Origin: an archaeon | GTDB taxonomy: Archaea; EX4484-52; B79-G9 | Reading direction: 5' to 3' | DNA length: 17,760 nucleotides | Assembly: GCA_030630425.1 (NCBI GenBank) | Contig: DAOVNB010000004.1 | Span: 1-17,760 of the forward strand | Shown: positions 5,442 through 17,088 of the stretch, in pieces | Layout: the number at the start of each line of letters is the position of its first letter | Position numbering within the stretch: position 1 is the first letter of the stretch | Position numbers and translations under genes: made by a program | The notes under the pieces: model-generated | Database searches by the model: none | Told to the model about the DNA's origin: nothing | Seen by the model: the letters and a program-made list of their open reading frames with translations, nothing else

Positions 5442-5842
5442 TGAAAATACTTGAGACAAAAACAGCCACAATGGCAGAAGCGCTAGACATACTGAAAAAT
5501 GAAAATGAAGAAAATTTAGGGTATGAACAAAAGATAACTTTAGAATACCTTCACAGGCATACACTTCTTTCAAAAAAAGATGTTGTATCGGCAAGAGAAG
5601 CGCTTGAAAAAATAGAAGGCCTAAAAGAGCATCAAATAACTGCTCTTCTTGACCTTTTGCCTGAAAAAGAAGATGATGTAAAGATAATCTTTATGAAGGA
5701 AAGAATAACTCTTGAAGCGGCTCAAATAAAAAAAGTGCTTGAAGTTATTGACAAGATTCGACCGGACAAAAAGAAAATAAAAGCAAAAAGAACGCCGATA
5801 AAGAAAAAAGAAGAACCAAAAGAAGCAGAAGAAGAAAAATAA
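5438..5842 (+). CDS. rpoF: DNA-directed RNA polymerase subunit Rpo4 (RpoF)
   Basis: Rpo4 pairs with Rpo7 to form the stalk of archaeal RNA polymerase. The 134-aa protein shows the Rpb4-type helical pattern: LGYEQKITLEYLHRHTLLSKKDVVSAREALEKIEGLKEHQITALLDLLPEKEDDVKIIFMKERITLEAAQIKKVLEVIDKIRP, with the conserved 'LP..EDDVK.IF.KER' block near 75-90. The C-terminal roughly 25 residues form a low-complexity Lys/Glu tail that is longer than in many homologues. The ATG overlaps the L21e stop by ATGA. In many archaea a DUF655 gene and a KsgA methyltransferase follow; here the operon stops and a hairpin-rich element begins 21 bases later. Confidence 0.93.
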   Translation: MMKILETKTATMAEALDILKNENEENLGYEQKITLEYLHRHTLLSKKDVVSAREALEKIEGLKEHQITALLDLLPEKEDDVKIIFMKERITLEAAQIKKVLEVIDKIRPDKKKIKAKRTPIKKKEEPKEAEEEK

Positions 5843-5863: not shown

Positions 5864-5976
5864 ATCATGAAACCTCTATGCGACCCTGAAGTCGCTGTCG
5901 CTCCAACATCCTGAAAAGCATAGCTTTTCAAGACGCCCTAAAGGACGGGGTTTGTTTGGTTCGGTTTCAAGCTTTT
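5864..5976 (+). repeat. Structured palindromic element, copy 1 (3' of rpoF)
   Basis: The element begins ATCATGAAAC (5864-5873) and ends GGTTTCAAGCTTTT (5963-5976). Its ends can pair, TGAAACC (5868-5874) with GGTTTCA (5963-5969). Between them are three hairpins. These are GCGAC/GTCGC (5880-5895), TGAAAAGC/GCTTTTCA (5912-5930) and an imperfect CGCCCT/AGGACG (5934-5947). The reverse complement is collinear with 16453-16561: the same ends, the same order of hairpins, and different hairpin sequences. In both copies it reads in sense just after an upstream gene. No coding frame is evident. It may be a 3'-UTR RNA, a terminator or a mobile palindromic repeat. Confidence 0.65.
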
Positions 5977-6028
5977 AAAGTCGCAGAAAACCAAGCACTT
6001 CAGTGCATGGATGAATGCGACTTTAAAA
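5973..6028. repeat. Perfect 13-bp inverted repeat with nested hairpin
   Basis: TTTTAAAGTCGCA at 5973-5985 is perfectly inverted at 6016-6028. Inside, CCA-A-GCACT / AGTGC-A-TGG (5991-6010) forms a second stem with a short TC loop (or a C-UUCA-G tetraloop). It overlaps the last bases of copy 1 and ends 3 bases before the stop codon of the minus-strand gene at 6032. Placed between convergent genes, it could act as a bidirectional terminator or RNA-processing site. Confidence 0.65.
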
Positions 6029-6031
6029 TAA

Positions 6032-6649
6032 TTAGTAGTTTGGCGTTTCAATAGCAGTTGGATTTGGTCCACCAAGATTAACCGGTTTTATGGTTTTTTT
6101 TAATTCCCTGATTAATGTGGTGTATGGGTCTTCTGTTTTTGTTATGCGATGTTTTAATTTTTTAGGAAGATAAAATAAAATATGTGAGACTTCGGGAATC
6201 ATGAGATTTTTTTCTGTCAGATGACCACAAATATTTTGTAATAATATATCTGAATTGTTGCCTAAACCAATAGGTTCGTCTCCTTGCAGGTAGTTTATTG
6301 CTTCAGATATGGCGGCTCTTTCTTCTTTATTTATTACCGGATATGCAATTATTTCACTTCGAAAATCATCCGGAAGCGCTGCTAATATCCTGTTGATTGT
6401 TGGAAGTTCTTTATACTTCAATACTTTGGAAGCTGCTTCCTGTAGCTGCATTATGTCTATTAGCCCTCCATTATCTTGGGCATGTTTATAGAATTCTTGA
6501 TAAATTATTGTTGCTTTAAATAAATTTTTTCCAGTTTTGTCTCTGTGTTTTCTGTTAGTTTCTTTTACTTTGCCGCATTGTGTTTTTTCTGGCCACATCA
6601 TACCAAGAAATAATGAACACCATAAACTTTTAAAACCATAGCAAGTCAT
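6032..6649 (-). CDS. Hypothetical helical protein
   Basis: This is a soluble protein of 189-205 aa with no family I recognise. After a basic stretch (QCGKVKETNRKHRDKTGKN) it is mostly predicted helix, with hydrophobic repeats such as TINRILAALPDDFRSEIIAYPVINKEE and EVSHILFYLPKKLKHRITKTEDP. These two 'ILxxLPxxxxxxI' segments resemble each other and may be a repeat unit. The start is uncertain. The longest frame begins at ATG 6649, but its first 16 residues are odd, and a TATA-like TTTTAAAA (complement of 6628-6635) about 30 bases before ATG 6601 would make 6601 or 6598 the true start. Confidence 0.68.
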   Translation of the reverse strand: MTCYGFKSLWCSLFLGMMWPEKTQCGKVKETNRKHRDKTGKNLFKATIIYQEFYKHAQDNGGLIDIMQLQEAASKVLKYKELPTINRILAALPDDFRSEIIAYPVINKEERAAISEAINYLQGDEPIGLGNNSDILLQNICGHLTEKNLMIPEVSHILFYLPKKLKHRITKTEDPYTTLIRELKKTIKPVNLGGPNPTAIETPNY

Positions 6650-16264: not shown

Positions 16265-16283
16265 GCTTTCTATTATTTTCAAT

Positions 16284-16452
16284 CACCGGAAACTGCCGGC
16301 TTAAGCCGGCATAAGGAGGCGTTGAAATTTCGGAAATGCATAACGCATTTCCTGCATTTCAGAAACCCTTAAAATTCCTTTTGAATTTTAGGGTCCCGAA
16401 AATCCTTTTTAGGATTTTCAAGGATACAGGAAATTTGCGAAGCAAATTTCTG
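16284..16452. repeat. Array of five consecutive hairpins
   Basis: Five separate stems follow each other: TGCCGGC/GCCGGCA (16294-16311), GGAAATGC/GCATTTCC (16332-16352), CCCTTAAAATTC/GAATTTTAGGG with one bulge (16366-16393), GAAAATCCT/AGGATTTTC (16398-16419) and GAAATTTGC/GCAAATTTC (16430-16450). Loops are 3-5 bases and the stems differ in sequence. The array runs directly into copy 2 of the structured element. I see no credible gene in it. Confidence 0.75.
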
Positions 16453-16561
16453 AAAAGCTTGAAACTTAAACCAAGCAAATCATTTTCAGCCGCAGGCTGA
16501 AAAGCTTCGAACGAAGTGAGATGACCGACTGAAGTCGGTGGTCTCCCTGAAGTTTCATGAT
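16453..16561 (-). repeat. Structured palindromic element, copy 2 (3' end of the SCP2 gene)
   Basis: Read on the plus strand it opens AAAAGCTTGAAAC and closes GTTTCATGAT, the same ends as the reverse complement of copy 1. TGAAACTT (16460-16467) can pair with AAGTTTCA (16550-16557). Inside are three hairpins: TTTTCAGCC/GGCTGAAAA (16483-16503), CTTCG/CGAAG (16505-16516) and GAGATGACCGACT/AGTCGGTGGTCTC (16518-16545, one mismatch). Relative to copy 1 the closing stem has a T-A to C-G compensatory change. The conserved GTTTCATGAT contains the stop codon of the SCP2-like gene (16555-16557), so the element supplies or overlaps that gene's end. Confidence 0.65.
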
Positions 16562-17088
16562 CCTTCCATAAATTTCGGCCCTATGGTGGTTGCAAGAAAA
16601 CCGATTATTTTGTATTTGATTGAGCTAAAAAAACCAATACCTTTGTATGTTATATTTCCATTCTTTAGTGCCTCAAATGGGTCTAACTTGTTTTCTGCCA
16701 GGTTTTTTACAGTTTCAAAATCTGTTGAAATTTCAAGTGTTGGTTTCTCATTTTTGCCTTCGCCAATGCTTTTTAAAGAACCGTCGTTAAGTTCGATTTT
16801 GTAGTCGCCAAAATCCTCTATTCTGATATTCACCCGCTCGTTTCCAAAGAGCTTTTTTATCACTGGCTCTTCGGCCATTACAGCCTCAATAGCTTTTTTG
16901 GTATCGTTCCCATATTCAAGAATCATCAGGTTCATTGATTCTTTTAAGAAATCGGCGTCGTAATTTTCTAAAGTCTTTGCATCTTCAATGTCGAATTGCG
17001 AAATATTTTCTGTCTGCTGTGCATGTGCAAAAGAAGAGATTACAATAAATGCAAATGTAAAAAACAATAAACTGTGTTTGATGTTCAT
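16555..17088 (-). CDS. Secreted SCP2-like (sterol carrier fold) protein
   Basis: The 177-aa protein has a classic signal peptide (MNIKHSLLFFTFAFIVISSF, then AHA, cleaved before QQ). The mature C-terminal part resembles the SCP2/sterol-transfer fold: an acidic beta-sheet (RIEDFGDYKIELNDGSLK), then TLEISTDFETVKNLAENKLDPFEALKNGNITYKG, the 'D...L..G.LDP..A...G.I.' pattern of that family, and a hydrophobic last helix (IIGFLATTIGP). It probably binds a hydrophobic ligand outside the cytoplasm, as an inference. The ATG overlaps the stop of the antiporter gene (ATGA), so the two are coupled. Its stop codon falls in the conserved end of the structured element. Confidence 0.78.
   Translation of the reverse strand: MNIKHSLLFFTFAFIVISSFAHAQQTENISQFDIEDAKTLENYDADFLKESMNLMILEYGNDTKKAIEAVMAEEPVIKKLFGNERVNIRIEDFGDYKIELNDGSLKSIGEGKNEKPTLEISTDFETVKNLAENKLDPFEALKNGNITYKGIGFFSSIKYKIIGFLATTIGPKFMEGS

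Follow-up and report, generated by a model that had tools for sequence, protein, structure and literature searches.

Two segments of the window analysed here, a stretch of archaeal DNA of 17,760 nt, are probably copies of a small mobile DNA element that is non-autonomous and consists of one hairpin after another, both with a large internal loop, and we regard membership in such an element family as the best explanation overall. The mobility of the element itself was shown by its precise in-frame insertion into genes, empty sites in relatives, nesting, and near-identical copies elsewhere. The draft genome to which the window belongs (G000) comprises 973 kb in 191 contigs, of which the window is C30, and the gene content of this contig is archaeal, with genes for ribosomal protein L21e, the RNA polymerase subunit Rpb4 (rpoF), Pus10 and FttA. 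The first-pass annotation had marked one pair of structured segments and offered, among other readings, a dispersed palindromic repeat; this alternative was right, as the covariance model recovered many further copies. The same annotation had suggested a search of the genome and its relatives with such a model, and the copies found there retain the end helix through compensatory changes.

Architecture of the element and the two copies in the window

From the comparison of copies without inserts, the complete unit was read as about 106–118 nt, consisting of hairpin A (TTTT...AAAA), GCTT, hairpin B and a terminal ATGA. Hairpin A starts with TTTT or CTTT (TTTA and TCTA in other genomes) and ends with AAAA or AAAG, and its interior comprises a stem, in several subtypes an internal loop like GAAAA/ATGAA, an upper stem and a loop. 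Hairpin B is ordered as closing helix, loop with conserved GAACCAAnCAAA, GC-rich inner hairpin, second loop and closing helix, followed by ATGA. In minimum-energy RNA folds, 13 of 16 compact copies (110–118 nt) form hairpin A and then the closing helix of hairpin B, two adjacent hairpins making up the whole unit, which lends no support to the four-way junction proposed earlier. In the other three (L017, L059 and L090), hairpin B was predicted to pair otherwise and the closing helix was not formed. The folding energies of the 16 copies ranged from −37 to −56 kcal/mol. Thirty-two compact copies of 106–118 nt have the size expected of many-copy palindromic repeats (100–150 bp), and many copies are decayed.

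In the window (Table 1), alignment bore out the collinearity of 16453–16561 with the reverse complement of 5864–5976, and in each copy the outer ends base-pair, also at the position where C-G in one copy is T-A in the other. The segment first marked corresponds approximately to hairpin B, but the unit is longer, with hairpin A preceding hairpin B. The pair singled out there as compensatory is, however, the weakest of the helix, unpaired in 35 of the 88 scorable sequences, whereas five neighbouring pairs are changed on both sides in 5–18 sequences. The inner hairpins, thought to keep their order and position, are in fact unlike modules that interrupt the inner stem of hairpin B at unlike places; copy 1 carries N5 and copy 2 carries N3.

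Copy 1 lies between the convergent rpoF (plus strand, ending at 5842) and an ORF at 6032–6649 (minus strand). Its hairpin A is inverted relative to hairpin B, unlike in other copies of the same subtype, an assignment based on the hairpin-A motif being on the strand opposite to hairpin B in L001/L100. For copy 2, the automatic call of the left end (16357) fell inside a nested module, and 16276 was set by reading the sequence. The SCP2-like ORF at 16555–17088 (minus strand) has its stop codon (16555–16557) within the right end of copy 2, and the C-terminus of its protein may have been changed by the insertion.

Table 1. Positions of the two element copies and their parts in the window.
Feature	Position	Strand	Remarks
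Copy 1, whole element, 164 nt	5865..6028	-	Target junction A|T; single-stranded DNA fold z -5.1
Hairpin A of copy 1 (TTTT...AAAA; internal loop AGAAAA/ATGAAT)	5973..6028	-	
Hairpin B of copy 1 (GCTTGAAACC ... GGTTTCATGA)	5865..5972	-	Model score 59.9 bits
Inserted module N5 of copy 1, 47 nt, 3' arm of hairpin B inner stem	5887..5933	-	Comparison with copies without N5; N5 motif
Copy 2, whole element and nested inserts, 285 nt	16276..16560	+	Single-stranded DNA fold z -7.6
Hairpin A of copy 2, subtype b; last base is 16456, past insert N1	16276..16327	+	
Module N1 (TTTCGGAAA ... TTTCTGAAA), hairpin A/hairpin B junction	16328..16455	+	Comparison with copies without N1 and with other N1 copies
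Module N2 (two hairpins) within N1	16366..16423	+	Comparison with N1 without N2 in L070/L173 and L076/L165
Hairpin B of copy 2 (GCTTGAAACTT ... AAGTTTCATGA)	16457..16560	+	Model score 40.3 bits
Module N3, 42 nt (TTTTCAGCC..GGCTGAAAA GCTTCGAAC GAAGTGAGATGA), 5' arm of hairpin B inner stem	16483..16524	+	Sequence comparison; N3 motif

Distribution of the family and covariation of hairpin B

The covariance model was built on hairpin B only, because the hairpin-A subtypes are misaligned in the whole-element alignment (A2), of which RNAalifold resolved the left half poorly. The training set was 25 copies, with those of the window left out, and the model, run with large-search filters that lose weak matches, gave 85 matches (E ≤ 0.001) spread over 11 of the 121 genomes. 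The window's own genome holds 21 of them, a lower bound, since four more sites with a short hairpin B score 20–29 bits. One archaeal family accounts for 81 of the 85 matches. The matched genomes are nine of the 11 that were searched from the window's family, counting its own, plus a single genome in each of two other families of that order, and G000, G001, G003, G004 and G006 together contain 75 of the 85 matches. The end motif GGTTTCATGAT, with at most one mismatch, occurs 45 times in the own genome, compared with three for the reversed control; together with the model scores of the window copies, this count indicates that the element is not a chance pattern. With each window segment as query, some 20 additional sites (E < 0.05) were recovered from the own genome, most of them as partial matches.

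When named genomes were scanned for the left motif, 35 records were obtained, of which 21 were archaeal drafts (Nanohalarchaeota, Nanohaloarchaea, Aenigmatarchaeota, or simply archaeon). The 14 bacterial records were taken as chance: only three, from Pedobacter, pass the scan with a one-mismatch right motif in a 272-nt stretch. Viral spread was rejected as well, the left motif occurring on six viral contigs, none with the right motif within 260 nt, which we also took as chance.

Several loci merit separate description. Four sites of the own genome (L249, L250, L251 and L252, on G000:C58, C53, C97 and C165, respectively) form a further subfamily in which hairpin B is short and an N3-like module is present, with TTTTTATTGC and GCAATAAAAA as boundaries. 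L130 (G000:C7:122-238) and L140 (G000:C178:83-199) are near-identical copies with common flanks within one assembly, and would represent a segmental duplication or strain variants. A copy with a shortened hairpin A and matching flanks occupies the same site in two genera (L185, G004:C183:8645-8702; L138, G005:C121:3086-3145), and represents an old insertion, perhaps retained for use.

The closing helix of hairpin B is almost invariant in the 25-sequence training alignment, but across all 95 matches (89 distinct) it reads ACCRC/GYGGT in some copies and GAAAC/GTTTC in others. At five of its pairs, 18, 13, 12, 5 and 7 sequences, respectively, are changed on both sides. Cells with both sides changed number 168 against a mean of 41 in shuffles, and the covariation score is 0.366 against 0.138 in shuffles and at most 0.089 with the partners slid by 1–3 columns; the shuffle statistics are inflated by related sequences, and the alignment, being fitted to the model, leans towards the structure. 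Pairing in this helix has been preserved through compensatory change.

Insertion into genes, target sites and nested modules

Two in-frame insertions lie in conserved genes and are absent from relatives. PheRS-beta of G004 carries 37 extra residues exactly at an antisense element, and this insert is absent in all five aligned homologues (chosen from 120 listed), three of which are 89–92% identical. The solved PheRS-beta chain 2cxi aligns on both sides of the insertion point and has a short connection there. The U32 peptidase of G000 and G003 has 38 extra residues from a sense-oriented element; among nine aligned rows covering the site, the insert is present in two and absent in seven, including the same-genus G002 (ten loci could be aligned, all but one of them across the site, with several more divergent matches left out). 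A radical-SAM gene and an open frame that has at least 405 codons and no Pfam match also contain in-frame copies; for the radical-SAM copy the automatic left end lies within the element, and the open frame was traced separately through the whole element. An M24 peptidase gene probably carries another in-frame copy close to its start, although an alternative start is possible there. Gene-internal copies occur in both orientations. In addition, two copies in G004 are 98.2% identical and have unrelated flanks.

For boundary finding, the 95 model matches were reduced to 90 by removing five duplicates from overlapping loci, and to 86 by removing four partial matches; a left end was assigned in 62 and not assigned in 24. 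A frame of at least 80 codons spans 20 of the 62 joined sites. Five of these frames read through the element and 15 meet a stop, which we take to be chance frames or non-coding flanks. Some insertions in genes may be tolerated as 37–52 extra residues, because the common lengths are multiples of three (19 of the 32 compact copies) and one antisense frame is often stop-free (24 of 32), counts in which the copies share ancestry. In L141, L129 (two copies) and L182, the antisense frame gives a recurring peptide, HETSVRPRPKGRGLIGSVSS and close variants, in four genes, that of L182 being more diverged.

The target site was characterized in 40 copies with a compact hairpin A, a set in which one or more of the left ends come from a nested module and three or more pairs count a single insertion twice. 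Reading the element's first base, the final base of hairpin A and the base that follows ATGA in this order, the combination was T/A/T in 28, T/G/T in two, C/G/C in nine and T/A/C in one. In 39 of 40 copies the element thus begins with the base that also follows ATGA (Fisher p 3.7e-8, relatedness ignored), and the last base of hairpin A is able to pair with the latter. In the flanks, T is found at −3 in 28 copies and C or T at −2 in 31. The A before the element and its first four bases (from a fixed list) were imposed by the boundary search, which left free the flank positions −3 and −2, the final base of hairpin A and the base that follows ATGA. Because the net gain in PheRS-beta and in the U32 peptidase, exactly 37 and 38 residues, equals the length of the element, the base after ATGA was already in the target. 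Two readings fit equally, namely that the insertion point must match the element, or that an AT or AC dinucleotide is duplicated. The insertions show no target duplication, or at most that of such an AY dinucleotide. Against a strict matching rule, module N3 begins with T and the base after the module is C.

Small palindromic repeats have also inserted into the palindromes of other elements. Copy 2 is nested three deep: N1 occupies the hairpin junction and itself contains N2, whereas the inner stem of hairpin B harbours N3, a 42-nt miniature of the whole plan (TTTT..AAAA GCTT..ATGA). Within the zone of a model match lie eight of 10 places of N3, eight of nine of N4, three of six of N5 and both of N6, as counted in about 208 kb of loci chosen for element content, with one N4 place counted on both strands. 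The DNA searches identified element sequence in the loci of all remaining places of N3, N4 and N5, except L210, where only the N5 part of the query matched and N5 may be a free module. Five more N3-like places were found in the own genome outside those loci (C58, C53, C97, C165 and C167), the first four within element copies with a short hairpin B. At the fifth (L253, G000:C167:884-901), the N3-like module adjoins an apparent tRNA gene and has no surrounding element. The N1 pattern occurs outside the zones of model matches in 4 of 26 places, and the N2 pattern, which is too loose to judge, in 27 of 50. The occurrence of N5 at one position in copies from different sites implies that an element carrying an insert can still spread, and that of N3 at several positions implies repeated insertion.

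Possible modes of movement and comparison with known systems

Considering the above results, we propose that a folded single strand would be the form that is recognised, because the stems are kept by compensatory change and the loops and end motifs keep their sequence. The element inserts cleanly between an A and a following pyrimidine (TYA|Y), with no gain beyond its own length, and other hairpin modules enter its stems and junction to give composites that still spread. Movement would take place as folded single-stranded DNA, by a nuclease acting in trans.

The same covariation and conserved loop nucleotides, together with the copy kept at one site in two genera (L185 and L138), could also be expected of a structured non-coding RNA family (3'-UTR, terminator or regulatory), duplicated and kept for an RNA function. 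The first-pass annotation had named a new 3'-UTR RNA family as one possibility, placing both copies in sense just after rpoF and the SCP2-like gene, but each copy is on the strand opposite that gene; copy 1 does follow the minus-strand ORF at 6032–6649, and copy 2 contains the stop of the SCP2-like ORF. In a simple ORF survey of 82 copies, a gene was called on both sides of 57; of these, 24 share the strand of their upstream gene and 33 do not, which shows no bias towards that strand. Copies lie within genes in both orientations, the sites differ between related genomes, and the window has no Rfam match at gathering scores. We consider an RNA family quite unlikely.

The identity of the mover was approached through the proteins encoded by the genomes. 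Y1 transposase was found in none of 13 genomes (59–96% complete) and reverse transcriptase (PF00078) in none of 15. IS110 was present in two of 15 genomes, only G007 and G009, neither of which has an element match, and in none of G000–G006. Serine recombinase was detected in one of 15, G002, which has two matches; this sole gene (L248, G002:C41:2831-3247) shares its genome with one TnpB gene and few element copies. None of these four classes was found in the drafts of G000, G001, G003, G004 and G006, which are incomplete, and neither tnpA nor tnpB was detected in the element-rich genomes. The joint absence from the element-rich genomes of the four mover classes sought is notable.

These results bear on two other routes. 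In one, the folded RNA would be copied back into DNA or reverse-spliced; the stable RNA folds, and the lack in element-rich genomes of a DNA transposase of the classes sought, are in line with it, but the 15 genomes contain no reverse transcriptase of PF00078, and the inverted hairpin A of copy 1 is a DNA-type rearrangement, which makes this route the least probable of those weighed. In the other, site-specific recombination in the style of a serine recombinase or the bridge RNA of IS110 would match an A|Y core between a circle junction and the target. Clean insertion and the agreement of the base after ATGA with the first base in 39 of 40 copies would follow from such a mechanism, and two hairpins with internal loops recall a bridge RNA. 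However, IS110 occurs only in the two genomes without element matches and serine recombinase only in the one with two, and the first base of N3 differs from the base that follows the module, so we judge this mechanism very unlikely.

Returning to the mobile DNA element, its hairpin A may link it to TnpB elements. The hairpin-A motif (stem, GAANA, stem, ATGAA, stem) was found only in element copies and upstream of tnpB, once in L127 and once in L128, in 1.53 Mb of redundant locus sequence searched on both strands, from loci mostly chosen for element content and with a motif defined after both sequences were seen. These two loci, in G002 and G007, respectively, are the only TnpB matches among eleven genomes of the window's family. 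The motif was absent from the 12 other loci of the TnpB search, five of them below the family cut-off and some truncated where their contig stops, and it was likewise missing when 150 loci were shuffled in a simple manner. At its right end, the L128 locus bears no resemblance to hairpin B, and the L127 locus runs to the contig end. The internal loop common to hairpin A and the hairpin upstream of the TnpB genes suggests ends of the IS200/IS605 type, and such a system may tentatively be named as the likeliest source. That the elements and their nested modules spread as orphan hairpins without a resident transposase of a known class, with the target base matched to the closing pair of hairpin A, seems to us rather doubtful.

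Compared with the left end of IS200/IS605 elements (IS1341-type, TnpB), hairpin A has the same internal loop, AGAANA/ATGAAT, as the hairpin upstream of tnpB in L127 and L128; the right end differs, and the element-rich genomes lack detectable tnpA and tnpB, as noted above. IS200/IS605 ends normally carry unpaired sequence between the cut site and the hairpin, whereas hairpin A starts at the boundary. Among the papers listed in a non-exhaustive search of open-licence PMC literature, we recognised none that describes the present elements. Coding palindromic repeats of Methanocaldococcus jannaschii were reportedly described by Suyama et al. in 2005. To our knowledge, Rickettsia provides the best-known case of in-frame palindromic insertion, and the mover has not been found there.

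The Rickettsia palindromic elements (RPE) and the WPE of Wolbachia are palindromic repeats of about 100–150 bp, located between genes and in frame in conserved genes; RPE-7 also occurs in PheRS-beta, and RPE-4, RPE-6 and RPE-7 are rich in ATGAC (PMC3767692, PMC10969869, PMC2229807). Our elements resemble them as palindromic repeats found both between genes and in frame within genes, PheRS-beta being a host in each case. In contrast to the single long stem-loop of an RPE, they have an archaeal host, two hairpins, ends of TTTT/CTTT..ATGA, a TYA|Y target and nested modules, and we liken the two by description without claiming relatedness. The work of Suyama et al. is cited in PMC2229807 for archaeal repeats with open frames that are fused into protein genes. 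The PATEs of Haloquadratum are transposase-free palindromic elements of an archaeon, some of them derived from IS605-type transposons, and SMR-A repeats insert into PATE palindromes with no target duplication, their mobilisation being called enigmatic (PMC3119063). Transposase-free palindromes, targeted by other small repeats without duplication and with an enigmatic mover, are features common to that system and ours, a likeness by description that implies no membership; PATE palindromes are near-terminal, with 20–50 bp of variable end sequence, whereas here the hairpin begins at the boundary. The double-hairpin elements of fungal mitochondria are small, potentially mobile and made of two hairpins (PMC10085805). 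They are likened to our elements by description as well, being there GC-rich and mitochondrial, and here residents of archaeal genomes.

The elements thus represent an archaeal counterpart of the Rickettsia palindromes, with sharply defined ends, stems that covary, sites that are empty in close relatives, a base that apparently matches the target and a possible structural link to TnpB ends, and they give testable clues to the movement of transposase-less palindromes. The comparison suggests that proteins of small genomes acquire insertions by similar means in both domains.
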